Made by a program: the position numbers and the translations under genes. This document shows, piece by piece, positions 11,031-57,300 of a stretch of DNA of 64,000 bases; within the stretch, counting starts at the first letter, position 1; each line of letters begins with the position of its first letter. This stretch comes from Polytrichum commune (Eukaryota; Streptophyta; Polytrichopsida; Polytrichales; Polytrichaceae): NCBI GenBank assembly GCA_950295325.1, contig OX485807.1, forward strand, positions 33,386,440-33,450,439, written 5' to 3'. A model generated the notes under the pieces. It ran no database searches. It was given only the letters and a program-made list of their open reading frames with translations, and was not told the origin of the DNA.

Positions 11031-11529
11031 TGCTTCTACAAGTGCTAAAATGTATAATTATCGGGGGGCCATATTAACTTGAAGCCTTCCTTGTAATTTA
11101 CAACTTTGACTTCTACACATATATTGCGGCTCAACCTAATTCTCTCCTTTGGGAATTATCTTGGATTATTAAACCATTTCAAAGTAAACTATAAATCGAC
11201 AATAGTAGCTATGATGTCCTACAAGAATGTCCCTTAAAGATCACTTGACAACTTCCAAAAACTTCAAAGCATATCCTCTCCAATTTACAGGGGTTCATTC
11301 TACTGTGGTCGACACATCTTCCATCCACATTACTTTTCACATGCCTAGTAAGTACACATTTATGTGTAATAGAATCCCTCAAGTTGCCTGATGTGAAAAT
11401 TTGTTCCAAAGATTGTTCAATGGTAGCTTTCTCTTTGTAGGTGTAAAACAAATTGAGCAAAGAGGCTTGACACTTGCTTGACATATGATTTGAGAACCCC
11501 GTGAGAAAATGTAATCAAGAATGCAATAC

Positions 11530-11719
11530 CTTTATCGATTGCATGTCCATGTGAGATGTACTCCTTATCAAGGCACTCATGTGGGGAGGAAGACAATCCA
11601 CCTTGGTTGCATTTCATAGTCAGAAGAGGAGTAGTTGCAATATAATTGCCTTCATTCTTCATAGATTGCAGGATGTCTGCCACTTCCTCCTTGCTTGCCA
11701 TAGCATGCTCCCTAGTCAT
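11530..11719 (-). pseudogene. Possible exon of an unrecognised gene, duplicated at 53088-53277
   Basis: Reads MTREHAMASKEEVADILQSM and continues to HAIDKG before a GT donor at 11529. The same exon recurs inverted in the right duplication arm (53088-53277, about 90 percent alike), where homology stops within 3 bp of this donor. The function is unknown. Conservation of the frame in both copies suggests it was once coding. Confidence 0.35.
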
Positions 11720-12000
11720 AAATAATCATAATCCTGGTAAGAATTGAGATCACTTGAACTTTGATTTATTTGGTTAAAAGTGTAAGTTGCATAAGAAGTT
11801 GAAATTGGGGAAAATCTTCATGTCATGAACTTAGTACTTCCTCCATATAATATATTATGTATCAAATAAACATTCAAAGGTCCATGGGCAATTTTGATAA
11901 TGTTAAGTAGTTATGAGCATGAAGGTAAAACATAACTCTTGGAGAACATTTTAATACATGTTACAAGAAACAACAGTTGAGCAAAATATGAATCCTTTAC

Positions 12001-12015
12001 ACACACACACACACT
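12001..12015. repeat. (AC)n microsatellite
   Basis: Seven to eight ACs within the left duplication arm. The right arm has the matching (GT)n at about 52793-52807. Confidence 0.8.
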
Positions 12016-12122
12016 TGAAAACTACTCAAAACAAAATTGAACCCATTGCATGTGTCCCAAATCCTTAGGGGTTAAGTAAGTGTAGGCGTGCACATAAGTA
12101 CCACCCGCCCCCCCTAGCAAAT

Positions 12123-12325
12123 ACTAGACTAAAGATGGTGTTTAGTGTGCTTACTCTTTGGAGTTACACAATGCTATATATTTTGACTATTGATGTTTTT
12201 ATCCAAGTAGAGTTGTTATTGTTCTATAATGGCCAAACAACCAATTTAACATTTGTTGGCAAAGAGATATAGCATTTAGTAACTCCAACTGAGTAAGTGA
12301 CACTAAATATCATATTTAGTGTAGT
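12123..12325. mobile_element. MITE family 3 copy in left duplication arm
   Basis: Ends ACTAGACTAAAGATGGTG / CATATTTAGTGTAGT with inner GGAGTTACACAATGCTATAT and its inverse. The right-arm copy (52482-52685) keeps a better left end, ACTACACTAAA, so the insertion predates the inverted duplication. Confidence 0.6.
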
Positions 12326-12944
12326 GACATATGATACATATCCATCGTCACTTAAAACTCGGATATATCGACATTTCATCAGAATATTAGGTATTCACTT
12401 TACCACACAATCATTAGATGTTTACCTTAACTGTATGATGAAGCACAATGAACAACACATAATGTCAAGTCCAATCACCATAGCCAGCCTTGATCTTACT
12501 CTTTGGAAGGCACAAACTCATCGCCAATGTCATGCTCCATCGATGATTTGCGCCGAGTCTTTAGTTTGGGTTGCTCCTTGTGAAATCAGAAAGTTTCTTT
12601 CACTGCCAGATGTGAACCACACACTTAGAAATTAAAGTTGACCGAGTCTTCTAGATGTAGCCCAAAATGACTTTAGATTGAATTGATTAAAGAACCCATA
12701 AAACAGAGATGATAGATGAATGGTACACCATGTTTATTGATATTTTCTTGTGAACTTAATGAGGAATAGATGTCTAGAGCACTGCTCGGGAAGAACCGGC
12801 AGTTAGTTGCAGATGAACCGGTTGAGTCTGAGAAATAACCGGTAGAAGTTGGAGACTTCAAGAGAAATACTGATCATTTTAGAGGGATCTATAGAATATG
12901 TCTCAAATGAATAAAGCAAAACTAGAAGATGTCAACATGTAATC

Positions 12945-21555: not shown

Positions 21556-21990
21556 TAACAAGACCTACATAGGCCACATGCTCTACCTAACACACCTACA
21601 CCACAAAACCATAAAAATCAAAAACACACAACACTACACTTGGAACAACTCCACTATCCTCCTTCTATGTGGAGACATACACCCCAATCCGGGCCCACCC
21701 TTGCACAACAACAAACTACCCTACGAATACACACAACGACAAAAGCAATACTTCATCCCCACCACAACCACACTCAAAGCCCGATATGCCCACCTGGAAA
21801 AATTATTCACACCACACTTAACCCACGGAAACCATAGTAATCCTAACCAAGCATTGAGTCATCTACAAAGGCACCAAGTAACATTGTCAAAATACCCAAT
21901 CCACCACCAAATATATGCCCTCATCATAACATATAGCCCCCTACCACAAACATGCAACCAACAACTGGCGGGTGACATAGACCCACATTG
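21125..21990. repeat. 436-bp tandem duplication around the LINE 2A-like motif
   Basis: First unit about 21125-21560, second from about 21561. Shared landmarks include ACACTACACTTGGAACAACT against ACTACTACACGTGGAATAAT and the NPGP codons at about 21251 and 21687. The two copies have diverged clearly at the nucleotide level yet still encode similar peptides. Confidence 0.75.
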
Positions 21991-33425: not shown

Positions 33426-33508
33426 TGTGGGTGTTGTGGGCATTTGGATGGAAACAAATTCTTGAGCATTGAAGTTAAATATAATTGTCAACCTTCTATG
33501 TATAGATC

Positions 33509-35092: not shown

Positions 35093-35488
35093 AACACTAT
35101 ATTCGTTAATCGGAGACTTTGGAAAGTCTCAAAATAAAATACGCCCATAGTTTGGGATGCCAATATTGTGAACATATGGAACTTTGGGAACATGACGGTT
35201 TACAAATTCGCCCGCGAAGAATATTCACATTACTAAAAATAGTAAGTCTTCATATCATAACATAAACATGAACTACACGTGGAAAAAACAATCCAATCCC
35301 AAAATCAAATAGTATTATGTCATTATAAAGTTTAAGGTGTGCATCCCATATATAAGGGTCTTATGGGATTGTATGGCACATCCCAAACGTATTTATAAAT
35401 TTGAATATTATAAATTTATTATATAATAATTGCAATAATACCAAGTCTATAAAGTCCCCCTACATTGAGCCATTAAATCCAACTTATG

Positions 35489-38400
35489 TTATGTTTCCCC
35501 GTCTCCATATTCCGCTTCATATCCATTCTCGGCTTCATTTTCCACAGCTGCAATACGTGCCAGGTTGTCTTTGGCAAAATCTATATGTTTTTGGGGGATG
35601 GTCATTGTTTCCGATTTAGAGCCCTTACGCGGTTTCCAAGCACAAAGTATGGTATCCGTGTTTATCCAAACCGGTCCATATGCTGAGTCCACTGTCCACT
35701 TGAAATTCTTTTTGGTGTCCCAACCTAAATAGGTCCGGAGAACGTTCTGGTCTTTGGTGCTAGGACGGCAATATTCCACTTCAATTTGATGAAAGTTGGG
35801 GCTAGTTCGGATAAAATTGGGTGAAGACAATGCTTTCACCAACCAAATTGGCTTGGGGTGCTCCTCATCTCCTGCTCGTACGAGGACCATATACCCTTCA
35901 TGGCAATCAACACCCACACGAAACGACGGTGCCGGCCGATTGCGCGCAGGACCAACGTAATGCTCGTCCATTTCGAACTCTTCACGGACCTCTCCATTGT
36001 CAAAGAACATGGTGTCGGACTCCACAACCGTCAAACGACTTTGTGGCCAAAATCCTTGTGTCAAAGTTATACGTGTGTCGCCACCAAGTGTCATCAAGGC
36101 CGAGCGAATGCGATCCCAATACGCGGTCAACGGTTCATAAGTATTCCTAACACGTTTGGTGATGTCTTCCTCACACAACTCTTTCCAATATTCAATGAAT
36201 TCGGATATACCTTTGATGATTTCCGGCCCATTCTTCATGGGATCGGGTTTACAAGGCTTTGGATCCCCATCCGGGAGCAAACATTTTCCATCCTTGTTCT
36301 GACGCCACACGAGTATCCCATCCTCCGGACACCAATTAGGAGATGTGCACAAAAGCTTAAACTGCATAGCAGGGACACCATCATCCCTCATATAGAAGCG
36401 GAATTGTTGTGCTTTCGTGTGTCCCACCAAACGGTCGTCTCCCTTCAGCATGTATGGCTTGATGAAGGCCTTGAAATTTGGTACTTCCTCAATCATGTGC
36501 GGGATTACGGGCACATTGTCCAAATCCATGTATGATTTCATAAGAAGCGGTATGGTGGGAAAATCCTCTTCATGCAACTTCATGCTCCAACGTCCAAATG
36601 ACGCATCAATGTCATCGTGTGTGTGCCCCACCATCAAGAAAGACACAAACACCTCTTTGAATATGCCTTTTGCCACAAGCAATGACCAAAAACAAAACAC
36701 ATATCGACATTTATTGTCTTTAGCACAATTATCAAGTTGAACATGGAGAGTTGGAGGCAATGGTTTTGCACAAATGGGTTCTCCACGTGGTTCCGGCAAT
36801 GCCGACATACAAACCTCCTTCCCCTGAAGCACTGCCTCGTAAAGGGGTGTTGTTCCACAACCATCAAAAAGCGCACGGGAAGAGTGAATCGGTGGCTTCT
36901 CAAGATCGCGCAAGAGTTTTGCAAATGAACCAACCGTGTGGTTGGCATCGCCAGGGTAAAAATCCAAACCATAATGGGCATATTTAACGTTCCCATGGCC
37001 GTGGGCGATCATACCTGAGAAAAAAAAACGATGGATGAACAACAAAAATATGGTATAACCACTAAACAGACGGATGAAGTTTGACATATGACAAACAAAC
37101 CCAAAAACATTAGAAATCCTTTCAAACACATTTGTGATTCCATACGAACCTGTGACAGCTACGGGCAACTTGAAGAGACCATCCGTGGCTTTAATTTTGC
37201 GTGCATAACAAGGGCATGCGGTTTTGGCATGGTCCATTTTATCATGGATGACAGTTAGGACCTCCGCAGGCCTCATTATGGATAGTGCACGATTCTTGTA
37301 GTAATCTTGACGGTGTGCCTCCTGGTTGTTGACATGCTCAATGTATTTTCTTTGGTGTCTTGTATGGGACTCGGTGCCTATAGGATGGGCGTCTCGAAGA
37401 CCTTTGTACTTTTCACACGTCGTACACCTGGCAAACTTGTCCCCGGGTCTCTTCAAAATGTACTCTGCAAACTGTTGGTTTTTAATTACACTACACTCAA
37501 CTTGGACAAAGAAATGGGCCCACACCCAGCTTTGCGACCCACTTCGTTTATGTCCGTTAAGATGTTCTTCCATTTTGTGCCCGTGGGCAACACCATTTGG
37601 ACAACTTTCTCCCCGGAGGACAATGTCCTCGTCTTGTGGGGCATTGCATCGGCCAACGGGACTATGATGGTGGAGAGTGTCGCGGAGGCTTGGAGTGTAG
37701 CCTCTCTAGGTTTCTTGGTGCCCGAGTTGCCATGAAATCGAGAACGGCGTCCCAACAAAGAATACTTCCTAAACCTATAAAAATCAGCCTTGGAGACTGC
37801 ATGGATGGAATACCATGCTGTGCAACACACTTCCACATTCTCAAGGGTAACCACCTTATTGCCATGGCTGTCAACATGCAAATTTCTGTGGACCTCGAGT
37901 TTTTTTGCCGACCTCATACGAAAATCCGCAAGCCACATCTCTTGCCGAAGGGACCTAATTTTTTCACGCGGAAAGAATTGACAACATTTCTTCGCACAAC
38001 AGTCCTTTGTGGATACTTGACGGATAGAGTCCTCTCCAAGTATGGAATCCCGTCTACGTTCTTTTTGTATGCCAGACACACGACTAGAATCGTATTTGCG
38101 CAGACCTTTGCGAGGACGTCTTGCGGCCAACAAAGCTGACTGCGTTTGCTTGTGCCGTCGCCCATGATCCCACAAGCTTACTTCTTCATGGAGAACTCGA
38201 CGCAGGGGCCATCGCCGCAAGGAAAATCTCCAAGTCAACGGGACTTCCAACGGAAGTAAAGAATTCAAGATGCAAACGCCAACATCATCCAATCCAAGGG
38301 GGTTGGCATCAATACATTCAAGGGGATCGGAGTTTCTACAAATGCCATTTGCCACAGGGACACCATGCTCGTTCAGAAGAACAACATCAAGGCCCACCCA

Positions 38401-38652
38401 CTGCTCCCTCCCGAAACCGGCACACAATGGAATGTGGTCGTTATCATCCCCATAATGTTGGGAATGTTCCTGCCCTTCCAAAGATTCATGGGAGGATGTA
38501 TCCCCAGACACACCCAGGACGTTAGCCCCTCGAATATAATCCTCCGAAGGCGAAGAGAGGCGACATTCCGTATCCGACGACGATGCATTCGTCGACAACT
38601 CAAATGCACTATCTCCCATATCCATCGCAAACCCACCTAATGACGCGAACAT
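35489..38652 (-). CDS. DDE/DUF7869-like transposase of the 15.8 kb element
   Basis: The ATG at 38652 opens a frame (MFASLGGFAMDMGD) running to about 37510. The second part runs to a stop at 35489, with one GT-AG intron at 37149-37015. The N-terminal half is acidic, then has a Cys-rich segment (CCAKKCCQFF) and a conserved block EVCCTAWYSIHAVSK. The C-terminal half has FARCTTC, then the putative catalytic core: LDNC at about 36.73 kb, CRYVFCFWSLLVAKGIF, and MVGHTHDDIDASFGRW at about 36.62 kb. These match a widespread eukaryotic transposase-like family with RNase H fold (DUF7869, from memory). Around 37500 the two halves are in different frames without a convincing intron, so a frameshift may have disabled this copy. 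Total length about 1010 aa. Confidence 0.7.
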
Positions 38653-39030
38653 GGAATCACAACATATATAAGTCAATCACAAATACAACAAGATTTTAGT
38701 AAACCTAAGTCACAATAGAGCACAAGTCACAGTGGGAATAACAGAACGATCGTCTGCATGCAAACACGCTTCTGTTTGAGTTGGGCATATATACGAACGG
38801 GAGTTCGAATGTTCCCCGTCATTCTGTATGTCAACTAAAACATGGACCGTTTCAATTGTGCAGGGATACCTGTTATATGCCTACACATAACTTCCGAGAG
38901 TCATTGACGCATATGAATGTATTATTCCATGTGCCCCAAATACACATCCCTCGCCCATACTATGTGTATGTGGAGCAAATGGAGCATTTTCCCACATCCC
39001 GCAGTCAATGTCCAGATACATTCCCTGAAT
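38653..39030. promoter_or_regulatory. Upstream region of the transposase gene
   Basis: About 380 bp between the transposase ATG and the palindrome array. It includes one half-decayed palindrome (ACGAACGGGAGTTCGAA, about 38792-38808). No TATA box could be assigned with confidence. Confidence 0.35.
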
Positions 39031-39034
39031 GAAT

Positions 39035-39880
39035 TCGAACGCACGTTCGTATTTATGTCTAATATTTTGTTGTAAATACATATATATTTGTGTGCGTGCC
39101 CAGGGAGGCGTGATGTATGCATCGACATACTCCCAGGTGGAAATCACGAACGCACGTTCGTAAACTCTCGCTCATCTTATGTATATCTGCTGAAATCATT
39201 GATATTTTCGACCTTCTGTTTGCAAATTACTATCGTATTGTATTTACATCTTCATACCCCTTATATCCATGAGTATATGGATTCTGAAAATAAGCGGTGT
39301 CACTTACGAACGCACGTTCGTAAACTCTAATGTCATTTCAGTATGTACCATACACCGTTTACGCGCATTCAATATTTACGAACGCGCGTTCGTAAACTCT
39401 TGCACATTCCCAATGTTCTTCGGATGCTCAAAATGTACATTTACGAACGCTCGTTCGTATATGACTTTCATATTGTTTGTGCCTATGCATAATCGTATCT
39501 GAGTCTATACATTTATGGATGTAAAATATACGCCAAGGCGGTATTTACGAACGCACGTTCGTAAACATCCAACCAACCTCGATATATCTCATCCACAAAC
39601 ACATGCGCGCACTGAAGGTTTACGAACGCGCGTTCGTAAACTCTTGCACATTCCCAATGTTCGGCGGATGCCCAAAATGTACATTTACGAACGTTCGTTC
39701 GTATATGACTTTCATATTGTCTGTGCCTATGCATAATCGTATATGGGTCTATACATTCATGGATGTACATATATGCCAAGGCGGTATTTACGAACGCACG
39801 TTCGTAAACATCCAACCAACCTCGATATATCTCATCCACAAACACATGCGCGCACTGCAGGTTTACGAACGCGCGTTCGT
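39035..39880. repeat. Palindrome array A: ten copies of ACGAACG-NN-CGTTCGT
   Basis: Cores start at 39036 (first base changed), 39146, 39306, 39378, 39443, 39547, 39622, 39687, 39790 and 39865. Nine are exact at all 14 fixed positions, usually extended to TTTACGAACG NN CGTTCGTAAA. The central pair is CA, CG, CT or TT. Each core carries four or more CpGs in otherwise AT-rich DNA. The array lies upstream of the transposase, 0.4-1.2 kb from its ATG, and resembles an operator or binding-site array. Confidence 0.9.
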
Positions 39881-39885
39881 AAACC
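39365..39885. repeat. 244-bp tandem repeat carrying three palindromes per unit
   Basis: CG-type cores at 39378, 39622 and 39865 are spaced 243-244 bp. CA-type cores at 39547 and 39790 are spaced 243 bp. The DNA between them (CATCCAACCAACCTCGATAT, TGACTTTCATATTGT) is repeated as well. Confidence 0.85.
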
Positions 39886-40254
39886 CCCGGTATTTGCGGC
39901 GGTATTTGCGGGATAAGGTTGTCTGCCACCTATGAGTGTACGGTTCACGCACAGGAAACTGGCTCGAGCGCCCTCCGTCGGGTGTCTGGAGCGCACACTT
40001 GGTGTCTCCCGCAAAAAAGAGCTCTGCAATGGGGGGGAGAGCTTTAAGTACTCCTCTACCGTGGTTCAAAATCCCTTGGATTCTCTTTGAAAAGCGGATT
40101 CCCGCCGCCTACTTTAACCTAACAATATGCCATTCTATTCATGCGGGACATAAATAACTTTCTGTATTGAATATGTATGGCATGCACGCATTGATAATAT
40201 GTTCATCCGTTCCACACCTTAGGTGTTACCAAGGTTTCCCGAACCAAAAAATAA

Positions 40255-40510
40255 AATGTATATTCCTATATACATATCGATGTATATATTTACTTATATT
40301 TACATATATATATATATATATATCTTTGTATATATGTAAATATATATCTATATATATCTATATATGTGAATATATATCTATATACCTATATATATATGTG
40401 AATATATATCTATATACCTATATATATGTGTGAATATATATCTATATATCTATATATATGTTTCTTACATATATCTATACTTTACATATATATACATTAC
40501 ATGTATCTAC
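40255..40510. repeat. AT-rich satellite-like tract
   Basis: Irregular tandem copies of TATATATCTATATACCTATA TATGTGAA, with (AT)n. Short frames across it are artefacts. Confidence 0.85.
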
Positions 40511-40867
40511 ATTACATTTATGTACATTATTGCGGCAAATACTCACCAAGTGCATGAACACCAATAAAAAGTCTGGTGAATTCATGCAAGCTACTAAGGT
40601 AGATTAAGGAGATGAATTCAAACCATGCCTAGATATACTTTATATCTTAATTCAAATGCAACTCCAGGTTTGCAAATAGTGAATTGATTCAACATTGTGT
40701 GGAAATGTTGAATTAATTTGGAATGGTGCATAAGATAGTGTAATGATATGAATTGAAACCATACCTATATGGAGTCCCACTTATGCATTGTGTAATTAAA
40801 ATGCACTCAACACTATTAGGTTGGATCACAACATTCCTCCATATAGTGCGGATGGTAAAAAAAACTA

Positions 40868-40894
40868 GGGGTTTAGGGTTTAGGGTTTAGGGTT
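40868..40894. repeat. Interstitial plant telomere repeat (TTTAGGG)n
   Basis: Four consecutive GGGTTTA units inside the 15.8 kb element. Confidence 0.85.
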
Positions 40895-41119
40895 TGTGAG
40901 GGATGTGCATGTCCAGTAGTTCATATAACAGGGTTTACATACAAACTATATTCACTACTCATAAATCCATATTGCACTAACTTAATTTATTTGTAGCTTA
41001 CATTTGATGCGAGCCAAACTTTCAACGATCACCATATTCTGTAATTGGGGACATTTTCATGATTTTGGATACTATTTCAGAACATGGTATTCAAATAAAG
41101 AACAAGTAAAACACAAGAA

Positions 41120-42145
41120 TACATTCAATGTGACACAATAAAGCGATTTGCATGGGCAACACTAACCAATTTGGCACAAATACATCTCATCCGAATAATA
41201 ATTTGAACCACATATTAAATCATTTGCATTTATTTTGAGACTTTCCAAAGTCTCGGATTAACAAATATAATAATAAATTTAATGCAGTAGTTCAAGTTCA
41301 CACATAATAAACTGAATTGAAAGCCTAGTATTTGAAATTGAATTTTCCCGCACCTCTTGTAAGAAAATCCTAAACCGTTCCCACCAATCTTAAATCGGGA
41401 CCTTTATGGATCTTATATTAAATTATTTGAGGAACCATTTAAAAACTTGAAAGATATTTCAATTATGAGAACACTATATATTTGAAAACACCATATTAAT
41501 ACACATCGTTGGGGGTAGGGTTTTCATCGAATCCCTAGTACATGATGTGCAATGTGGAAATTGAATTCATACTCCTTATCTAGAAGATGTTTACAATGAA
41601 TCCAAAGTAGATGAAGGGGATGTAGCATTTAAAATGCATGTTTTGTACTGGACTCCTTATGTTTATGTGATGGAGGCATATACATATTAAAAAGCTTGAA
41701 ATTAACGTGCATTTATTGCTTATACATCCAACTTAGATTATTTTCGTTAATTAGAGAGTTATCATTATATTCCGCAATTGGAGACTTTTTTATGATTTTG
41801 AGACTACTTAAGGACATGTTTTTCAAATAAATAACAAAGAAAACACAAATATATATTCAATGTGACTTAATCAAGCGATTCGCTTGGACAAAATTGACCA
41901 ATTTGACACAAATACATGTCATCACAATAAGAAATTGGACTAGATATTAAATCATTTGCATTTAATTTGAGACATTCGAAAGTCTCTGATTAACGAATAT
42001 AGTGATAGTTGGGAAAGTCTCAAACTAAGTGCAAATGGTGTAATATATAGTTGCATTTCTTATTGTGATGACATAGATTTATGTCAAATCGGTTAGTGCC
42101 CCCCATGCAAATCACTTTATTAAGTCACATTGAATATATTTATGT
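41120..42145. repeat. Internal copies of the element's terminal sequence, partly head-to-head
   Basis: GAGACTTTCCAAAGTCTCGG then ATTAACAAATATA at about 41240 is nearly the inverse of the left terminus of the 15.8 kb element. A second copy (AAAGTCTCTGATTAACGAAT then ATAGTG) ends near 42004, followed at once by the inverted GGAAAGTCTCAAACTAAGTG. Flanking blocks (TTCAATGTGAC, ATTAAATCATTTGCATTTA) are repeated in both. These look like ends of related non-autonomous elements, or scars of a composite origin. Confidence 0.65.
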
Positions 42146-42179
42146 GCTTTGATTACATTGAATTACTAAACCCCAATGA

Positions 42180-42430
42180 ATTCCAACCCATCCCCCCCAT
42201 CCACCCATCCACCCATCCCACACCCCATGCTATCTCCCCATCCCATCCCCTCATCTTCCTAGCCCGACCCATCCCTTCCCTCCCCAATGGGAAGCGGCCA
42301 TGTGGCAGCCCGAGGGAAAACCCTAGAGGCGCGGGCTACCTCCCCGCGCCCCCTCCTCTCCTTCCTCATTCTCATTTGGAGCAGAGAGAGGAGGAGCGCC
42401 GCGTTGGTTTAGAGTTTAGAGGCGAAGCTC
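42180..42430 (+). promoter_or_regulatory. Probable promoter and leader of the DGQHR/HAD gene
   Basis: A sharp switch to C-rich then GC-rich DNA: repeated CCATCCACCCATCC, a telo-box-like AAAACCCTAG, a CTCCTCTCCTTCCTCATTCT pyrimidine patch of the kind seen around plant transcription starts, then GAGAGTT-rich leader repeats. Confidence 0.45.
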
Positions 42431-43031
42431 TTGCATTTTTTAGTTTTGTGTGGTGCACTTCTTTTGTAGGCGCAAGTGTTGAGAGTTATTGACAGTCCCT
42501 TGAGAGTTGCAGCTCAAGAATAGAGAACTCGAGTTAGAAGAGTTGAAAGTTGGAGAGTTTAAAGTTTATAGAGTTTAAAGCTTGAGAGTTGGAAGGCTAA
42601 GATTAGGATACTCAAGCTATAAGCTTGATAATTGCAAGTTTTAGAGTAGCAGCTTGAGAGATACTGCATTTGAAGTTGCATATACATCAGAGTCTTAGTT
42701 AGGGTTTGTACATAGCATGCAACAACTAGTGTGAAGGCAATTTCAGTGGTGCAGTGGTGCATTTGACTTTCAAATCACCTTGCTTTTGTGGGGTTTCCTG
42801 GGGTTTTCAACAACGGAGCAAGCAGCTTTTGGGTGTGTAAAATTTCAGAGTAAGCACAATATTCCTTCCCTTCTCAAATCCTTCACAGTCTATATTTGTT
42901 CATTATTGAATGGCATGTGTTTTGGAAGTCAAGTTCGGATCCTCGTTCTGAATTCTCTGTCACATTCCAAGTCTATATGTTTTGATTGTATTGTTTTTCT
43001 TCAATCTCACCTTTCTGACGAACACTTGCAG

Positions 43032-43079
43032 GCACAAGTGCAAGCTTTGTTGAGACACAGCAAGCAAGACCTTGCCATA
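43032..43079 (+). other. Possible small non-coding leader exon
   Basis: Acceptor CACTTGCAG before 43032 and donor CATAC|GTATGT at 43080 bracket about 48 bp. The following intron to 43693 carries palindrome array B. Confidence 0.35.
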
Positions 43080-43178
43080 CGTATGTATACGAATTCGTAT
43101 ATATACGAATCCGTATATGTACGGACACTATATTGTTATTATTAATTATATATATAAAAACAAACAACAGGCTCATTT

Positions 43179-43659
43179 ACGAACGAGCGTTCGTAAATAC
43201 CTCTACCGCGCACAATATACACCCATTTACGAACGCGCGTTCGTAAATGCATAGGCCGCGCAAAATATATACCATTTCACGAACGCGCGTTCGTAAAGAT
43301 TCTTTGGAACCCAAGGACTACGTTTACGAACGTGCGTTCGAAACTCTAAATCCAAAATGGAGGGATATATCCATGCTGTAATTCATATAAGTACTTAAAT
43401 CCAATCACAACACTAAATTTAACTCAGTAGGTTCTACAATATCACATGACTTTACGAACGCGCGTTCGTATAGTTATGTACAAAATACTAATAAACAGGA
43501 ATCTCATATTACGAACGCGCGTTCGTGAAAGATGTGAACCAATGTGAATGCATTAGAAACACCCTGAAATGCATAAAGCATTCAAAACTTCGTATTTCCA
43601 AAAACCACACTATGAAAATAATATGCATGGCACGGTGTTGTTTACGAACGAACGTTCGT
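43179..43659. repeat. Palindrome array B: seven copies in the 5' intron
   Basis: Cores start at 43179 (AG), 43229 (CG), 43279 (CG), 43326 (one mismatch), 43454 (CG), 43511 (CG) and 43644 (AA). The first four are spaced 47-50 bp. The last sits 35 bp before the splice acceptor preceding the start codon. Confidence 0.9.
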
Positions 43660-43693
43660 AAAAACAATTCTGATTTGCTCTTGTGTGATGCAG

Positions 43694-46600
43694 ATGGCTA
43701 AAGCTAACAGAAACGCCATCGACTTGTTCGCAGTGCCAGTGGAGCGCCTTCCAGAGGGCGTCTCGGATACCAATGGGAACGACAACTATGTCCCAAAAGA
43801 AGAATTCATGGCTGAGTGGACGGCCATCCCCACGAAGACCGAGGAAGGGTTGTTTGCATTGCGATTCACTTATGAGCTGCAGACAAGGGCTGACCAACCA
43901 GACCAATGGGTGCAGACAAAGAATTGGGAGATAGAATCCGCAGAGGCACAAGGAGACTTTGTTATTCTGGATATGAAAAATAAAAAAGACCATGTGAACC
44001 TCCTCTTAAACTACCTATTGCACCCATTCTCTTATGCTTATGCATGCAATAATGTCGCATCCGATGCGAAACATTTCAATCTGGATGCTCTCTTCACCAA
44101 ATATGCCCTGAGTCAACACTGGACGGCGAGGAAGTTGACTGCCCTGACCTTGAATGTTTCGAAGTACAACAGTGTTGCCGCGGAGGCAAATAAAAAAAAG
44201 AAAAGTCCGAAAAAACCAGCTGCTTCGGGGGCAGGAGGATCGAGAAGTGCTCCGCGGCCTGTGCCTTCGGGGAGCAGGTTGACAGAAGGGCCCAGCAGAC
44301 AATCCACTCCATCCAAGAGGTCGAGGGACGAGATGGAGAAGTCCGGATTGACGGAAGGCGCTGAGGTTAGTTCTCCTCCAGTGATGCCAACCCCTTTGAA
44401 GAAGGGAGAAAACCCAGACGCTGCCAAAGCGACAAAAATCCTTCGAGACTTCAACAACTACTCCAAGGATTGCTGGCCTATGGGACGCCACTTCACTTTC
44501 AACGTGGATTGTTTCAAGTGCGAGAAATCTCCTAACAAGTGGGTGGTGAGGTCTCGTGAAAGCGGAGGGGTGAAGTGGCAGATTAATAACCTCATGAACA
44601 ACGTGAAGTGGGATAGGCAGACCGTCTGCGTGATGCCCAAGGGTTTTTTGTCACGCCCCACTGAGAAGGATTGGCCAAGAATCCAGAATGGAGAGTTCTG
44701 GATAATCGATGGACAACACAGTCTAGAGGCGTCACAGATCATCCTAAAGGATGATAACTTCCAGCACGAGCTCAAGGCGGACCTGCGCTACTGGAAGGCG
44801 TTTTTGGTTTGGTCTGACGACTGGGACAAGCTCCGCAAAATATCGACATTTTTGAATTCCGGAAACAAGATCAAGGCATTCGAGGCCTCCTGGGCGGCGA
44901 ATATAGTGGCGGCCAGAGACGTGTGGGTCGCGCACGGATGCCCGCCAAAAGAGAGGGAGAACGCCAAGACGCAATCTCCACAGTGGAAGGTGAGTTTACG
45001 AACGAGCGTTCGTAAAGCATATGTTGCATTAAACAATTTCTAAATTTTCCAACTTACGAACGCGCGTTCGTATTTAGTATTGAACACTGACGTCCTCGTA
45101 TGTATGTTGCAGGCGTTCTGTGATGCGATGGTGGACAAATTCTCCTCCATCGACATGAAGTCCACAAGCACCAAATCAGTTCTGGAGCTCAAAGATGAGC
45201 TCCGTCTGATTTGCTGCAACAGAGACACCTGGGAGTTGTGGACCCAGTTCTTCGACGCTCACAGCTCGGGCGATCTGGTGAACCCAGACACAGAAAAGAA
45301 GTACGCTCAAGAGAAGAGCGGAGAGGCTCCGCCTCTACTGCGGGAATTTTTTAGGGCCCTGCAAGGACTGACTGAATCAGAGTTGCAGCGATGTGCGGTT
45401 CACGTTCTTGGGAACACCGTCGGAAGGACCATCCCTTATCCCAAGATATTTTTGAAGAGACCAAAGCACAAGCCCGGCACGTACTCGATCAAAGAGTGGT
45501 GCGACCACAGGAAGCTGAAGACCGCTGCGATGCGGGAGATTAGCGGCCTATTGCCTGAGATGCACCTTTTCCAGGCCGACGAAGATATCAACTGGGCGAA
45601 ATGGAAGGAGTTCAAGGCGCTGTACAATATCAACGGTGCCTCAATGCGCAGCCTGGTGAAGGAGCACGTCGCCGTCCTGAAGCTCAAGGGAAACAAAAGA
45701 GCAAAAAAAACAGAAACGGAACCTGAAGAGCTTCAACGGTACATCTCCTTCTTGGAGAGGAAGAGGAACGCCACCTTCGAGGGCGTGGCAAGATTTTGTG
45801 TGGTGACCACGGGGCTGGAGAGGACCACGTTTTCCAAGTGGGATGGCACCTTCAGCAGGTCCGAGGTCAGGGAGGATCGAAGGGGTTGTCCCTTCGCGGT
45901 CATCGACTTCAGAGGGATACCCGGTGCCTCGCGACAGGGCGCGAAGGGGGAGCCTTTTTACAACCCTTTCATGGCGAGATTCATGGAGCACAAATCTCCG
46001 ACCATGAGGGAGCCGCACGTATGGCTGTGGATTGTGGAGCAGGAGAAGCAATCCGTCGTCATCGATTTGTATGAGAACAAGATCAAGTTCGAGTACAACA
46101 TCTTCCACAGCACATACGTGCCAGCGAAGACGGAGGGAATTGTTGCCGTAAACGAGGCCAGAGGCAATAGGCAGGTGGGAGCGGTGAGCCTCATCTTCTT
46201 GACGTACAATGCGCTTAGGAATGGGCGAGCACCCATAAAGGCGATCAACACATTCAAGAAGATATACAGCATCCCTCACCCACCTCCAAAGGATCTCTTC
46301 CAGGAGACTCTGTACACTGTCTTCCCGGCGCTGGAGCTGAGGATGGAGTTCTACGTCTCCATATTGCAGGGTTTGGCAATGATTGGCGAGACTGTCTACA
46401 ACGTATTTGGAGGCAGCAAATTTATGTACGCGGCCATGGTAAGCCATCTCACACCACTTTTTACGAACGCTCGTTCGTAAACACTGCATGCTCCAAACAA
46501 TTTACCATGGGCAGCCGATACTTATGATTGTTTTGTTAATTGTTTTTTTATTATTTCCTCGCTCAAAGCCTTCATGTTTACGAACGCGCGTTCGTAAATG

Positions 46601-49428
46601 ACTGAATCTTTGCCTTCTTATCTCAGATGCTGGGGCTGTGCGTGAACACATATATTGACGCCGTCGACGAGGAGGATTACAAGTTCCACAGGACAAAAGC
46701 GTCGACGATGGACCTAGCTGACATGTCCGTGCCCAGAACAGACTTCAACATGCCGGCCGAGGAAGGCATGCCGCCCATGGAAACAGACGACGACGAGCCT
46801 GGCCCCTCCGTCAACGTCGATGCCATCCTCCAGGCTTTGGATGTCACTCCTCTCCGGTTGTTGGCCCCATCGGCGGAGCCTTCAGAATACCAAGGGACCC
46901 CGGCTGGATGTACTGGATCCTCGGCGGGTGCCACCCAGGATGTCCTCCCCGCGCTTACCTCAGGCGCGAAGCCCTTCGGCACGCCAGGAGGTTGTTCGAC
47001 GTCAGTGTCCCCCAAGCAAAGGCTGGCGGTCCCGAAAATGGAGACCCTCGATGTCCTCGACCAACGCTCCCGTCCCACGTTGGACCTGTTCCGCAACACG
47101 CGACGGAGGATGAAGAAGACCCCGTACGTGGAGTTGCCCGAGGGGGCGATCATCGAGGTCTCCGACGAGGACGAGGGGGACATTGACATTATGGTCGAGC
47201 TTGGGGTGGAGTTCGACAAGAACAAGAGGGTCAAGGAGGAGGCCCTTTCCGTCGCCGAGCTTAACGCAAAGCTCGAGCAGAAGATGAAGGAAGACATGGC
47301 TGCGGCTGCAGAGGAGAATGCCCGGAAAATGAGAAAAATTGAGGAGGAGCTGAAGTCCTCCAACGAGAAGACGGACGCCATACTGGCGATGCTGACCAGG
47401 CTGCAGAACTTTGCAGTGGCCCCTCAGGCAGCATTCCCATTCCCTGCGGGATACCCCATGCACGGTCCTTTCCCGGGAGGGCATTCCTACCAGCCAGCGC
47501 CCCACCCAACGCCGGTGGGGACTCCTCCACCCCCTACAATGCCCACGGACACCGCCAACATACACGACGCAATCTCGGCGGCTATCCGTGAGGACGAGGA
47601 TTTACGAACGCACGTTCGTGAATCTTCAGGTCCAACAGTCCTCACCCCACCCCCACCAAGGGTAGGACTGCCTTCACAGACGGACACGGCACCTTTCACC
47701 GTCGTCCCCAGTTTACTAGATAGGACAAGGGGCGATGATACTGCGCGACACACTGACTTGGTCATTGTGGAGGACACGCAGGGGAGCCCGAGTGACACCG
47801 CAGGCGTCCAGAGGATGGACGTCGAGGACAGCCCTGCGGAAGACCGACATCCCCCCGCATGCATTGGGGACGTGCACATGGAGACTCTCGACCTGGGTGG
47901 CGAGGAGGACGACATACAGCAGACCCATACGTCTCAGGCGGCGCGTGCTGACGACGTAATGGAGACTGAGGCACCTGCGGCGGCGGATGTGACGAACGCG
48001 CGTTCGTTAATCGCTGAGGAGGGAGCTGCCGCTCAATCCAGCGCCGCTGCCCCTCCCTCCGATGACGAGGTAACTCATCTTTGAGATTACCGCATGCATT
48101 TACGAACGCACGTTCGTAACATCTCTAACCACATGCGTTGTGTTTTTGGCGCGTTGTATACATCGGCATCCGAAACCTCCGATAGCCCATTTTTGCGTGC
48201 TTCCTTAGGTCGACCAGTTTTGTAGGACACGGCATCTTGTTGCCCTAGGAACCTGTACGATAGATTATCATCTGAGACAAACTGTAAATTTTCACGGAAT
48301 TCATATAAATGAAACATTTTTTTGCATCGAATCGCGTCGTCTCGCATTGGTTGTTTTGTGTATGTTCATGCGGGTTCAAATCTGTTGTGCATTTCTGCCT
48401 CGTTCACGAACGGACGCTCGTAAAAGGATGCCACCCCGCGACCATCTCCTTCACGAACGCCCGTTCGTAAATGCACTATAGGGTTCATTCACAAATGAAC
48501 GTTCGTGAATGGTGCGCATGGTCACTGCTGGCCTTTCACGAACGATCGTTCGCAAATGTACCCTTGTTCTCGCCCTTCGTCTTTTTCCATACTGCATCTT
48601 CATGTTTGCTAAATTCTTTATTGGATCATAGCATTAAACTAGTCGAATTGTTAATCACAGGACCCCCCGGAGATAGGTCGCAACCCCTCCACGAGTGGAC
48701 CTCAGACCCGAAACAAGCCGTTCATCGTGTTTGACCTCAACGGGGTGTTGTGTCACACCGAACACATCCCGAGGGTCCCCACGCGTCCCTTCCGTCACCC
48801 CGACGAAAGGGACTATGACGGCAAGCTCGACACCCTAATAAACCGCAAGGCTGTCCGCGCCCGTCCCGGCTTGCGGGACTTCCTTCGCGAGGTTGTCGAG
48901 TTCGCCCACGTCATTGTGTGGAGCTCAATGGTCATGGAGAACACGGAACCCATCGTCGACTTCCTATTCCGTGATCTCCCGAGCCCTTGCCTTGTCCTCG
49001 GGCAAGAGGACTGCGATGAACTACTCGACGAAAAGGGTCTACCGGTTCCCAAGTTCGGCGGCCGAGGCCGAGGGCAACAGTTCCTCAAGGTCCTAAGGTC
49101 CAGACTTTGGCGCGGCGTCCCCCGGCTTCAGGGGACCCCCCACGGGTGGTGGCCTACTCCGGAGAACACCCTCCTGGTCGACGACAGCCCCGCCAAGAGC
49201 GTTTTGAACCCCCCAGGCAACGTCATCTTTCCCGACACGTGGACCGGAGATAGGAAGGACGCATTTTTGGTCGATGCGCTAGCGCCGTACCTTAGAAGGC
49301 TTGTCCTCCACGCCGGTAGCATCCCCTTTTTTGTTAGGTCCAACCCCATCGGCAATGCGGGACTAAGCCCCCGCGATAATGTATACAAGAGCATCATGAG
49401 GCTCGCGAAATTTAATAAACTCATTTGA
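43694..49428 (+). CDS. 1610-aa DGQHR (ParB-like) / coiled-coil / FCP1-like HAD fusion protein
   Basis: Exons 43694-44989, 45113-46438, 46627-48069 and 48661-49428, all GT-AG, phase 0, lengths divisible by three. Exon 1 has a basic patch (KKKKSPKKP, about 168) and, at about 333-400, WIIDGQHSLEASQII and YWKAFLVWSDDWDKL. The former matches the DGQHR signature of DndB/ParB-related proteins, with Ser replacing Arg. Exon 2 (about 433-874) is conserved-looking but unassigned. Exon 3 has an acidic region, a coiled coil (VAELNAKLEQKMKEDM, about 1080-1135) and Pro-rich linkers. Exon 4 is a HAD domain of the FCP1/NIF type: VFDLNGVL, VIVWSS, LLVDDSPAK. The second motif-I Asp is Asn, so phosphatase activity is doubtful. 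I infer a nuclear, element-encoded protein. Palindromes fill its introns. Confidence 0.75.
44990..45112 (+). other. Intron 1 (123 bp) with a palindrome near each end
   Basis: The donor GTGAG is followed within 8 bp by a palindrome (core 44998-45013). A second (45056-45071) lies 41 bp before the acceptor TTGCAG. The copies are self-complementary and complementary to each other. Confidence 0.85.
46439..46626 (+). other. Intron 2 (188 bp) with a palindrome near each end
   Basis: Cores at 46463-46478 (24 bp after the GTAAG donor) and 46580-46595 (31 bp before the TCTCAG acceptor), the same layout as intron 1. Confidence 0.85.
47604..47619 (+). repeat. Palindrome inside exon 3
   Basis: ACGAACGCACGTTCGT, translated in frame as part of DLRTHVRES. 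No splice sites bracket it convincingly, so it seems to be coding. Confidence 0.75.
47992..48007 (+). repeat. Second palindrome inside exon 3
   Basis: ACGAACGCGCGTTCGT, translated as TNARSL near the end of exon 3. Confidence 0.75.
48070..48660 (+). other. Intron 3 (591 bp) with five palindromes, three decayed
   Basis: Cores at 48102 (exact), 48416 (one change), 48453 (exact), about 48491 (CGAACG changed to AATGAAC by transitions) and 48538 (one change). The changes look like CpG decay. Confidence 0.75.
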
Positions 49429-49602
49429 AATATCTTCATGTATGTGCGTGTTATCATTTGGTTCACATATCTAACGCTTCATCCGTTTTTGGATGTCTTT
49501 GTTGTCTGTGTTGTTGTTGTTATTGTTGTTGTTCCCCATAGTTTGCCCCCATATGTGACGCCCCCGTCCTCCACGGCCTTTCCCGTCCCCCCTCGTCCCC
49601 AG

Positions 49603-50510
49603 GCTCCCCTTCCCGCGGCGTGACGTATTCCGTGATCCCCTCACTCTACCACTTCTCGGCGGTGGATGCAGCCTCGGCCGTGGACTACTCCCGGGACGTC
49701 GACGACGGTGTTGTCAACAGCCCGCCCCCCAGGGTTGTCCCTCGGGCGTTCGCCCCGTCGCCCTCCCCCCTCTCCAAGGAGAAGCGGACGCTCGTTCGTT
49801 TGGGGCATGTGTCGCCCTCGAGGGACGACGCCATCGCTCGTCGTGGGCCGAGCCGACGTCTCCACCTGGAAGCAACCCGGTGCGACCCCTCCCCCGTCGT
49901 CCCCGTTCCTCCTCCTGCAAACCCATCCCCGGTCGTTGGCCCTCCTTGCCATGCTTCCCCCACATTACTGAACAGTGCCGCAATTCAACCGGATTCGTAT
50001 GCTCTCCTCGACGCCCCCATCGTCCCCGGGATCGATGTCACCAAATCCAAGGTGCCCTTCTTTGTCCCTAAACCCATATTCACCGTTGCTTTCCTCTTTG
50101 TCTGCGCGTGCCAAGAGCTTTACGAGCGCCCATCCCAAACCGCCCTTCCTCATTTCCCCACTCCGTTCTTATTATTATCTTCCTATGGCGTTTTTTGGCA
50201 GGTGGCTCCCCGCTCGCTTGGTGGCCAACCCTCCTCGACTTCGTCAGTGCCAAGGCACGCCCTCAAGGCCGCATCTTCCGAGTCCGATCGTTCTCTGGCC
50301 CTCCGGAGAAGCGCAAGACGTTCCCTTTCGCAAACGCCCTCGTATTCTACTTATAATACCACCTCGTACAATTCGGGAGCGCGTCCTGAAACATGCAAGA
50401 ACGACACATATTCCTTTCCAGGCAACACACAAGGATACAGTCGTGGGCCTGAGATTTTTAGAGCCATGGAGGCCGCCCAAAAAAAGGACTTAGCCGCAAA
50501 AAAAAAATAG
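49603..50510 (+). CDS. Pro/Ser-rich frame after the HAD gene, possibly an alternative C-terminus
   Basis: A frame runs from an acceptor-like CGTCCCCAG (exon from 49603) to a stop at 50510, with an in-frame GT-AG intron at 50052-50201. It could join a donor at about 49318 in the HAD exon (CACGCCG|GTAGCA, phase 1), replacing the last 36 residues, or be a separate gene. It encodes RGVTYSVIPSLYHFSAVD, then Pro/Arg-rich sequence and a Lys-rich tail (AAQKKDLAAKKK). A degraded half palindrome (GGACGCTCGTTCGT) is at about 49797. No family recognised. Confidence 0.4.
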
Positions 50511-51863: not shown

Positions 51864-53280
51864 GATTACATGTTGACATCTTCTAGTTTTGCTTTATTCA
51901 TTTGAGACATATTCTATAGATCCCTCTAAAATGATCAGTATTTCTCTTGAAGTCTCCAACTTCTACCGGTTATTTCTCAGACTCAACCGGTTCATCTGCA
52001 ACTAACTGCCGGTTCTTCCCGAGCAGTGCTCTAGACATCTATTCCTCATTAAGTTCACAAGAAAATATCAATAAACATGGTGTACCATTCATCTATCATC
52101 TCTGTTTTATGGGTTCTTTAATCAATTCAATCTAAAGTCATTTTGGGCTACATCTAGAAGACTCGGTCAACTTTAATTTCTAAGTGTGTGGTTCACATCT
52201 GGCAGTGAAAGAAACTTTCTGATTTCACAAGGAGCAACCCAAACTAAAGACTCGGCGCAAATCATCGATGGAGCATGACATTGGCGATGAGTTTGTGCCT
52301 TCCAAAGAGTAAGATCAAGGCTGGCTATGGTGATTGGACTTGACATTATGTGTTGTTCATTGTGCTTCATCATACAGTTAAGGTAAACATCTAATGATTG
52401 TGTGGTAAAGTGAATACCTAATATTCTGATGAAATGTCGATATATCCGAGTTTTAAGTGACGATGGATATGTATCATATGTCACTACACTAAATATGATA
52501 TTTAGTGTCACTTGCTCATTTGGAGTTACTAAATGCTATATCTCTTTACCACAAATGTTAAATTGGTTGTTTGGCCATTATAGAACAATAACAACTCTAC
52601 TTGGAAAAAAACATCAATAGTCAAGATATATAGCAGTGTGTAACTCCAAAGAGTAAGGACACTAAACACCATCTTTAGTGTAGTATTTCCTAGGGGGGTC
52701 GGGTGGTACTTATGTGCACGCCTACACTTACTTAACCCCTAAGGATTTGGGACACATGCAATGGGTTCAATTTTGTTTTGAGTAGTTTTCAAGTGTGTGT
52801 GTGTGTGTAAAGGATTCATATTTTGCTCAACTATTGTTTCTTGTAACATGTATTAAAATGTTCTCCAAGAATTATGTTTTACCTTCATGCTCATAACTAC
52901 TTAACATTATCAAAAACGCCCATGGACCTTTGAATGTTTATTTGATACATAATATATTATATGGAGGAAGTACTAAGTTCATGACATGAAGATTTTCCCC
53001 AATTTCAACTTCTTATGCAACTTACACTATTAGCCAAATAAATCAAAGTTCAAGTGATCCCAACCCTTACCAGGAATATGATGATTTATGACTAGGGAGC
53101 GTGCTATTGCAAGCAATGAGGAAGTAGGAGGCATCTTGCAATCTATGAAGAATGAAGGCAATTATATTGCAACTACTCCTCTTCTAATTATGAAATGCAA
53201 CCAAGGTGGATTTTCTTCCTCCCCACATGAGTGCCTTGATAAGGAATACATCTCACAAGGTGATGCAATCGATAAAGGTA
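51864..53280 (-). repeat. Right arm of the 1.4 kb inverted duplication
   Basis: Reverse complement of 11527-12944. It includes the MITE at 52482-52685, the (GT)n run and the exon-like frame at 53088-53277 (MTRERAIASNEEVGG). Homology ends at GATAAAGGTA, 3 bp past the exon edge of the left copy. Confidence 0.85.
52482..52685. mobile_element. MITE family 3 copy in right duplication arm
   Basis: Ends ACTACACTAAATATGATATT and its inverse-like ACCATCTTTAGTGTAGT, inner GGAGTTACTAAATGCTATAT. It is the counterpart of 12123-12325 and has the cleanest tips of the family here. Confidence 0.65.
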
Positions 53281-53303
53281 ATGGTAGGCTAAGAATAAGG
53301 GTG

Positions 53304-54331: not shown

Positions 54332-57300
54332 CTACTGTGGTGATTCATCATTGTAGTCTGCCTCTGTATCCTCCATTTGCATAGCAAGCTGCACCTCGTT
54401 GCTAGAAAGCTCCCTGGAACTTGATAAAATAGGTGGCATTGCTACGGCATCATCAGCGACATGATGTGCCATCAATCCCTGAGTTACAACATCGTCGCAT
54501 AAGCTTAGGCAGTGTAGATCTGGTCTTCCTTCAGCCATGGAAGTCACTCTCACACTTCGTGCTTCTTTGTGTAGAACTACCTTCCATCCAGGATGTGCCA
54601 CATCGTCAACAAAGAAGACCTGTTGAGCATGAAGAGGAAACGCAAACGAATCTGATGAGTACGGAATGGTACGGTCAATGTTCACGAGAGTGAAACCGTA
54701 CTCATCTCTTTTCATAGTTGCCCGTGGCCCAATCCACGTGGCGCGGACCCACTTACAATACAGTAGGAGTATTTCGAACTTCCCATAGTCAACCCCAATA
54801 ATCTCTTCCACCCACCCCACGTACTCCACGTTTGCAAGCCTGTGATTCTTGTCCTTTCTGCTGGAACGACAAAATTGTGAGAATGTTGCAGCTACTCCGC
54901 TGTCGCACGTTGACAAGTGGCCCTCTGCTCCTCGCACACGTATATGGTTCCCGTATGCATACATGTTGCGATACGATTTTGCCTCGCATGAAGGTGGTAG
55001 GACAAGGCCAAGAATATCTTCATAGACCTCTGTGCCTGCTGCCACATCCCGTTGCACCGCGATAGGAAACCACTCAGAAAACTGCTCATTCCTTGCAATT
55101 GCTGGATACTCTGCTTTTCTGCCCCGTGATCGACGACGTATCTCTGCACGCATTCTGTGCCGCGCTTCCATCTCCAAGTAGTGACGTCTGATTGGAAGCC
55201 ACAGTGGATGGAAGTTTTTTTACATAACAAAAACAGCCGGCAGATAAATGTAAACGTCATCAACATCTAATTCCCTAGTCATGTGTTGCAATATGATGAC
55301 TGAAATTAGTACGCAATAGACCTTTGTTGACTATAGAGTCATATTGTCCCTTCTAGACAGAGTGCATGACTAAAACATGTGATGCTTACTATCTGTTAGT
55401 CATGTGTTGCAATATGATGACTGGAATTAGTACGCAATAGACCTTTGTTGACTATAGAGTCACATTGTCCCTTCTAGACAAAGTGCATGACTAAAACATG
55501 TGATGCTTACTCTCTGTATGACTGTAGAGGCTCAGCATTCGTGAGAACAAACTCGTGAATCCGTGCCCTCAGCTCTGATGTCAAGAGTCGATATCGACCT
55601 GTACCCTCCGCGTCCTCACTCTTGGCCCCTACTTCCTCCTCATCATCCCAAGTCCTTCTGCGTGTTAGCTCACAGTCTTGCATGTACTCTGTGCAAAATC
55701 CTAACGCCTCCTCTATTGTGTACCCCCTCGCCATGGATCCCTCAGGTTTTGCTCGTTGCCTAACATAGCCCTTCAGTCTCTTCAGGTACCGCTCAATAGG
55801 ATACATCCATCGGGTGTGTACGGGACCACATATATCCAACTGCTGCACCAGGTGAATGGGGAGGTGCGACATGACATCAAAGAATGAAGGTGGAAAAACC
55901 ATCTCTAGCATGCATAGAGTCTCAGCTGTGTACTCCAATAACTGTTCCATGGACGAGGGATCTACGGATTTTGCGCACAATCGTACAAACACCCGGCTAA
56001 GCCGCATTATTGCCACCCACGTATCCCTGTCTAAGAGAGTGCGCAAACACAAGGGGAGCAATTGTTGCATCAAGACATGGTAGTCATGAGATTTCAGCCC
56101 CTTCAAGTCCCCATCCGACGCAATGCATTTTGCAAGTTGGCCAGCGTAGTTCGTAGGAGTCTTCAAATTGCGGATAATGTCTATGAATTTTGCCTTCTCT
56201 TCTTTCGATAGTACATATGGAGCTGTTGGAAGTACGACAGACCCAGGTTTCCTTCCTGGAAGAGGGTGCAAATATGGTCGAATGTTGGCCTCTTTTAAGT
56301 CTAGCCGGGCCTTCAAAGTGTCACGGACTCCCCAAATTGTTTTCATCACGTTCTCGCAGATGTTTTTTTCGCAGTGCATGGGATCCAAAAGATGTCTAAT
56401 GAGGAGGTCCTGCCAGAAATCCCAGCAAAGCATTCCAGCTTCAGATTTACTCACTTTCGACAAAGACTCTTAAGCATTCATTAAAAATATATACGTCCAT
56501 ATTTTGTTTCATCCATACTGGCAGTCATGGATTTCAGAAATTGCACTATTCACAGTCACTCTTCTTACCAACCAGGTTACTAGAGTCAGTCAACAATTAT
56601 AACTGAACATACTGGAACCAGTGATTGATTTCAGAAATTGCACTATTCACATTCAACCTGCTAACCGTATTTGTTACTAGAATCAGTCAACAATTCTAAC
56701 TATCAGTTACTGGAACCAGTGATTGATTTCAAAAATTGCACTATTCACATTCAACCAGATAAGCATGTTTGTTACTAGATTCAGTCAACAATTCTAAATG
56801 TCAGTTACTGGAACCAGTGATTGATTTCAGAAATTGCACTATTCACATTCAACCAGATAAGCGTGTTTGTTACTAGATTCAGTCAACAATTCTAAATGTC
56901 AGTTACTGGAACCTGTGAATGCGCTAAGTACCTGCCAATACGGAAGCTTGTACAGAGCGGAGAGCCGCTTCACTCCGGTGCGCTGAATGGGGTCGCCTTC
57001 TCCTCCACCTCTTCTTCCCTGTGACTCTTGCAGGAAGGACAATCTTTCTTGTGTATAGCCCTTGATGTCGCATCCTGTTAGAATTGGAGGGGGAGGTCGG
57101 TACTCTTGTTGACCATCAAATGAATGCCTGAGCCTACGATATGGATGCCATCTACTGAGATACCGGCGGTGACCTAAATATACATTTTTTCCGAGAGCCT
57201 TTGACCGCCGAGTTGTAACATCTGGCCCACACTCGGTACACGCTCTATACCCTTTTGTGACTTGGCCAGATGTGAGTCCGTACGCAGGGAAGTCGTGAAT

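Follow-up and report, generated by a model that had tools for sequence, protein, structure and literature searches.

A transposon-borne ParB-like gene of Polytrichum commune and co-diverging palindromes: a candidate self-recognition system

The 64,000-nucleotide stretch of Polytrichum commune DNA analysed here ("the window") harbours, within a putative transposon, a four-exon gene whose product combines a predicted ParB-like fold with several further domains and which is accompanied by clustered palindromes. The strong result of our analysis is that, as judged from sequence, these palindromes appear to have diverged together with the protein. We consider it probable, albeit with considerable reservation, that the gene encodes the element's own palindrome-binding regulator which keeps the genes of the element expressed, most likely by anti-silencing in the manner of VANC. 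The gene itself, the modelled fold of exon 1, the palindromes, their co-divergence with the protein and their abundance in the genome form the basis of this reading, from which we infer the identity of the binder, its dimeric state, the anti-silencing and the roles of the other domains.

Results

Palindromes in the window

The palindromes assumed in a preliminary description of this DNA are real, as ACGAACGNNCGTTCGT yields 31 matches at no more than three mismatches compared with 0.90 expected from shuffled sequences. One match is an overlapping shift, which leaves 30 sites, 23 of them perfect and all within 38793-49799. Their arms are near-invariant and mostly extended to TTT/AAA; the two central bases vary, the first being C in 21 of 30 sites. 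The consensus of the window and its close relatives reads ACGAACG-NN-CGTTCGT. Sites are located upstream of both the ParB-like gene and a divergent gene for a DUF7869 protein, in all three introns of the former, twice in its exon 3 and, doubtfully, once downstream (Table 1). No palindrome is present elsewhere in the 64 kb, including both terminal repeats of the element, for which reason we reject dispersed repeats independent of the element; RNA hairpins we reject in view of the sites upstream of both genes. The tandem duplication in the DUF7869 upstream array (39362-39884) comprises about 244 bp and gives a 280-bp self-match at 94.3%. Another short motif, CGTATATATACGAATC, is found in 2.8 copies at 43080-43123, just 5' of the palindrome array of the ParB-like gene.

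Palindromes read from the flanks of relatives

A first search gave 20 relatives (exons 1 and 2), a profile search scoring the best 8000 candidates gave 55 exon-1 proteins, of which three had been found before, and a third gave the relatives of exon 4. By identity to the window, the 72 exon-1/2 proteins were split into clades A (28 proteins, at least 60%), C (14, 42-60%) and B (30, below 42%). Scans of viral and genome contig collections with the exon-2 alignment revealed no relative, and the palindromes of the relatives were therefore inferred from translated flanks; the open frames often continue beyond the exon ends, showing translated palindromes. For each of the 16384 possible 7-base arms we counted the proteins whose flank peptide fits arm, two free bases and reverse complement.

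In clade A, ACGAACG fits the most proteins (19 of the 24 with flanks); in clade C this is ACGGACG, designated C1 (6 of 12, with ACGGCCG in four others), and in clade B TGGGTCG (16 of 30; most rows here count about 23 coding N-terminal residues among their "flanks"). Across 100 shuffles for each clade, no arm ever fitted more than two proteins, and direct-repeat arms fitted 2, 0 and 1 proteins in A, C and B, respectively. Spacers of 1 or 3 bases gave at most three proteins, except for eight in clade B with spacer 3, while at 0, 4 and 6 bases the same palindromes reappear in a shifted reading. These arms are missing from the flanks of five proteins in clade A, two in C and fourteen in B; in clade B the variants TCGGGCG and TCGGTCG, chosen by eye, each fit three proteins, TGGGTCG being present as well in two of them. 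The peptide frame RT.VR cannot separate type A from C1.

The preliminary description had named homologous genes lacking palindromes as evidence that would count against it. Among the 44 relatives with at least eight residues past the aligned exon-1 end, 35 have a peptide readable as a palindrome no more than 20 codons away (A, 12/15; C, 8/10; B, 15/19, with patterns loosened to admit variants and one single-mismatch case); in A and B it mostly lies 2-4 codons past the exon end, in C mostly 6-7.

Co-divergence of protein and palindrome

In the maximum-likelihood tree built from 49 exon-1 rows, the five palindrome types assigned to 34 rows need four changes, which is the minimum. Here, the window was typed by its own DNA and 15 rows were left out of the count (two ambiguous, 13 untyped); the program issued a warning about two long branches that join between clades B and C. 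Of the 18 exon-2 rows, 15 could be typed, and the three states, with B3 pooled with B, need two changes. As read from these rows, the location of the palindrome is roughly preserved while both arms have changed in step. Since the arms stay complementary through the change, more than co-inheritance appears to be involved, which alone would not preserve complementarity. Such joint change of protein and site suggests a transposon that marks and controls its own DNA.

Palindromes in the source genome

The source genome (407.8 Mb, 64 contigs) was searched after the prediction had been made. It contains 5602 sites of the A palindrome versus 4 for the reversed control, 1394 of the C1 palindrome, predicted solely from the peptides of relatives, versus 1, and 10011 of the B palindrome TTGGGTCGNNCGACCCAA, likewise predicted from relatives, versus 0. 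Exon 2 gave 95 scored matches (83-100% identity) out of 1174 first-look candidates, 16 of the 95 carrying stops. Among the matches listed at the start of one contig (named C1, as is the palindrome type), the exon-2 copies at C1:2241207 and C1:2466223 both lie within 100 bases of A sites, while other A clusters listed there have no listed exon-2 copy. The spacing of the B sites at C1:620538-626108 can be read as that of an upstream array and, after it, three introns. The family is real and large and includes many intact copies; that it constitutes a self-binding system is a plausible reading of these sequences. At C1:616090-617356 a regular array of at least 17 B palindromes, about one every 78 bases, resembles a tandem-repeat expansion of the candidate binding site.

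Gene model and ParB-like domain

The four phase-0 exons described previously join into one frame of 1610 amino acids plus stop with no internal stops. All three introns, 123, 188 and 591 bases long, are GT...AG, and the motifs WIIDGQHSLEA, YWKAFLVWSDD, DLNGVL, WSS and VDDSPAK are all found in the spliced protein.

For exons 1 and 2 of the window copy, Pfam and NCBIfam return no matching family, searches over the exon-1 alignment give weak matches only (DUF6551 in 10 of 44 rows, best E 0.012), and PDB sequence searches with profiles returned nothing usable. Structure prediction, proposed earlier as a check against ParB/DndB folds, places a ParB/sulfiredoxin fold at residues 266-395, and it is on this model that the ParB-like fold of exon 1 is predicted. 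Membership in the DGQHR family TIGR03187 could not be upheld: its profile matches one of the 44 members at E 0.5, the window row not being among them, and the final residue of the pentapeptide DGQHR is Ser or Thr, never Arg (DGQHS in 41 rows, GGQHS, DGQHT and DGQYS in one each).

In phages, the ParB fold is often found fused to N6/N4 methyltransferases; its commonest eukaryotic representative is sulfiredoxin (PMC12704722). In the helical part of exon 2 (residues 30-220), the pLDDT averaged by tens is mostly 73-91, the lowest value being 61.

Degenerate methyltransferase-like domain

Exons 2 and 3 probably encode, according to structure models and profile comparison, a DNA-methyltransferase-like domain which is absent from the preliminary description. 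By Foldseek alone, methyltransferases rank first for exon 2, but at E 0.059. Alignment to YhdJ alone by hhalign gives a probability of 1.1%, where eight other E. coli proteins reach 0.1 to 0.5%, and leaves the two motif I regions unpaired; only a profile of seven enzymes paired them. The spliced methyltransferase-like stretch has no match in Pfam or PHROGs. Beta-class N6/N4 DNA methyltransferases possess the canonical motifs DPPY and DPFxGSGT. Neither is present in any of the 17 exon-2 relatives scanned, all of which carry DFRxxP in place of the former and [NS][VI][FYA]GG[STA]K in place of the latter.

HAD domain and coiled coil

The HAD core recognised previously is borne out far beyond chance by the NIF-type family of FCP1/SCP phosphatases (Table 1). 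The motif of these phosphatases is DxDx. In motif I of the window copy the first Asp is retained and the second is Asn; the same DLNG[VM]L stands in place of DxDx in all 22 exon-4 relatives readable by the motif pattern (26 of 48 are unreadable by it). The exchange had been taken to argue for binding rather than catalysis. Being common to all readable relatives, it provides no special argument about the window copy, and for the same reason we reject decay of this copy as its cause. One exon-4 relative, P0119, located on a contig of 311682 bases, is a DLNG-type HAD protein with 39-40% identity; it might be a host gene from which the HAD domain of the element was taken.

The coiled coil is the weak part of the original observation. 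A possible region exists in exon 3, but PF14932 matches at a sub-cut-off E of 0.0028 only, and the heptad test is not significant, the periodicity of the segment being equalled by 27 of 300 shuffles, and that of relative P0019 by 288 of 300.

The surrounding element

The ParB-like gene lies between two terminal inverted repeats together with the divergent DUF7869 gene, a LINE-like element and a hAT-like frame (Table 1). From this arrangement, the repeats and both genes appear to form one element, with the DUF7869 protein as the presumed transposase. The end of the left repeat is uncertain, the match starting, beyond one mismatch, at ACCTTTATCG, position 11528. AAT, seen by eye on the outer side of both repeats, is a possible 3-bp target duplication.

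Judging by their translations, we take 33506-35137 on the plus strand to be a hAT-like frame; it contains a C17orf113-type zinc finger (PF25431, E 1e-9). Likewise named from translation, the presumable LINE-like element at 16839-28564 consists of long frames with an extreme one-strand base skew (A 36%, C 33%, G 13%, T 18%). Just outside the right inverted repeat, frames at 54332-56469 on the minus strand resemble, in our estimation, a CACTA/tnp2 transposase.

Table 1. Features of the ParB-like gene and its element (window positions)
Feature	Position	Strand	Remarks
Left terminal inverted repeat	11524..12944	+	1421 bp; 97.4% identical to right one
Divergent DUF7869 gene	35489..38676	-	two overlapping open frames; PF25273 E 3.4e-40
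Array upstream of DUF7869 gene	38793..39880	.	11 sites, first two imperfect; partly tandem duplication
Array upstream of ParB-like gene	43179..43659	.	7 sites, one imperfect
Exon 1	43694-44989	+	PH/FERM-F3-like domain (residues 12-161), disordered linker, ParB-like domain; AF2 model mean pLDDT 76, pTM 0.42; VIA
ParB/sulfiredoxin-fold domain (predicted)	44489..44878	+	residues 266-395, motif DGQHSLEA
Two palindromes, intron 1	44998..45071	.	first immediately after splice donor
Exon 2	45113-46438	+	helical domain (residues 30-220), then methyltransferase-like domain; AF2 mean pLDDT 63.5, <50 over residues 368-442
Degenerate DNA-methyltransferase-like domain (probable)	45824..46438	+	may reach into exon 3, to about 46692 (by eye)
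Two palindromes, intron 2	46463..46595	.	
Exon 3	46627-48069	+	possible end of methyltransferase-like domain; low-complexity and possible coiled-coil region about 47224-47415
Palindrome in coding exon 3	47604..47619	.	
Palindrome in coding exon 3	47992..48007	.	
Five palindromes, intron 3	48102..48553	.	three imperfect
Exon 4	48661-49428	+	FCP1/NIF-like HAD domain and stop; PF03031 E 7.7e-16; 48 relatives at E <= 1e-8
Isolated palindrome-like site 3' of gene	49784..49799	.	two mismatches; doubtful
Right terminal inverted repeat	51864..53283	-	1420 bp

Discussion

Proposed function and its alternatives

We propose that the ParB-fold protein, probably as a dimer, recognises the palindromes, which measure roughly 20 bp and comprise two inverted arms and a variable 2-bp spacer. 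The element would keep them in the introns of the ParB-like gene as well as 5' of both divergent genes, and binding at many clustered sites would mark the DNA of the element and keep its genes expressed. The most likely route would be to counter host silencing in the way VANC acts for VANDAL elements; the HAD and the methyltransferase-like domain would serve as effector or DNA-reading parts. The ParB-like protein rather than the DUF7869 protein would be the binder.

We computed the observed/expected CpG ratio (o/e) in non-coding DNA with palindromes masked. The array 5' of the DUF7869 gene has 0.85, the introns have 0.94 and intron 3 has 1.08, compared with 0.32 and 0.38 in the terminal repeats; a palindrome-poor stretch downstream has 0.78. 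As a sign of anti-silencing, CpG retention gives a mixed picture which is suggestive at best.

Several observations weigh against the proposed anti-silencing regulator. The array upstream of the ParB-like gene has a CpG o/e of 0.57 and the stretch 42001-43160 one of 0.47, with TpG/CpA still in excess, and the nested LINE reaches 0.72. Part of the co-divergence is plain co-inheritance of protein and sites within one element, and the DUF7869 protein would likewise co-diverge with the palindromes. No helix-turn-helix was identified, and helical residues 30-220 of exon 2 are covered by no fold-search row. Finally, the Arg of GxxR, the P-motif of nucleotide-binding ParB proteins (PMC12704722), is absent from all 44 exon-1 rows, 42 of which show GQHS. 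Because of this loss, a CTP-driven parS clamp appears doubtful. Of the parS-like recognition suggested earlier, the ParB/sulfiredoxin fold and a strong, if indirect, link between family and palindromes are supported.

A KorB-like autoregulator, which from the palindromes would repress or tune both its own promoter and that of the DUF7869 gene with no role in silencing, is less likely: the many intronic and the two exonic sites seem to exceed what promoter control would need. We deem improbable an epigenetic writer, in which an active methyltransferase-like domain guided by the ParB-like domain methylates its own element. This has been proposed for algal transposons, the accessory protein of Ectocarpus Sola1 and similar green and red algal proteins providing the precedent (PMC12477816), and agrees with the fold match, but the methyltransferase motif positions are altered in all 17 relatives scanned and no Pfam methyltransferase is matched. 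There is little to recommend the palindromes as transposition sites of the DUF7869 protein, with the ParB-like protein as a passenger or transposition helper; the two genes do diverge within the same element, but its terminal repeats are devoid of palindromes and the sites track upstream regions and introns. Segregation or clamp spreading as at parS, evoked by the ParB fold and the 16-bp core palindromes, is very improbable given the P-motif Arg missing throughout; moreover, an integrated element would seem to need no partition.

Comparison with known systems

The accessory protein of Ectocarpus Sola1-1 comprises ParB-like and N4/N6 methyltransferase domains, and similar proteins are cited in green and red algae (PMC12477816); this report therefore lends independent support to our domain reading. 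Order and strand fit these proteins, with which ours would share ParB-like and methyltransferase(-like) domains in one transposon protein encoded on the strand opposite the presumed transposase (PMC12477816). Ours differs in its location beside DUF7869, its altered methyltransferase motifs, its PH-like N-terminus and its C-terminal FCP1-like HAD domain. In contrast to the palindrome arrays of the window element, the passage on Sola1 names no binding site (PMC12477816). Hence, the kind of protein is not new, ParB-methyltransferase accessory proteins of algal transposons having been published (PMC12477816). In the literature found on ParB/DGQHR, works 50 and 51 cited by PMC12477816 excepted, these palindromes are not reported. 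As far as our searches go, the co-diverging sites, the HAD fusion and the decayed methyltransferase motifs are new. Literature searches on DUF7869, and on an FCP1-like domain with a transposon or a phosphatase domain with a transposase, found nothing.

TnpA of Spm is a different protein, whose sites lie near the element ends. Encoded by this maize element, it is an example in which element activation accompanies DNA demethylation (PMC10398659). By analogy, VANC would be the best functional parallel (PMC5735166, PMC10398659): in both systems the element encodes the protein, short motifs cluster upstream and within introns, motif regions are duplicated in tandem, and protein and motif diverge jointly. 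Unlike the VANC21 motif, a non-palindromic 9-mer in one orientation, the window sites consist of inverted arms with a 2-bp spacer, and while VANC anti-silences, the window protein is presumed to do so (PMC5735166, PMC10398659). We found no indication of sequence kinship with VANC, as DUF1985 (the term used in PMC5735166) has no Pfam match up to E 5 in the four exons. Bacterial ParB, Noc and KorB with their parS, NBS and OB sites share the ParB fold and sites of about 16 bp (PMC11790492, PMC12704722); they differ in that our protein belongs to a eukaryotic element, has lost GxxR, shows no identified helix-turn-helix and bears extra domains.

Implications

Binding and modification of their own element have already been proposed for ParB/methyltransferase transposon proteins; here, the candidate sites are read directly and are of at least three types. 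Tentatively, and with less confidence than would make it probable, we suggest that a eukaryotic transposon superfamily runs a self-recognition code. Each lineage would possess its own reader, in which a ParB fold is joined to a decayed methyltransferase and a HAD domain, and a private palindrome present some tens of times in every element, reader and palindrome co-diverging, so that mutually blind systems (A, C1, B and more) share a genome with more than 17000 sites, each shielding its own family from silencing. If this is true, a bacterial-type fold was another source, besides VANC, of sequence-specific self-recognition by transposons, and the family would provide natural pairs of reader and site that might serve to steer chromatin.
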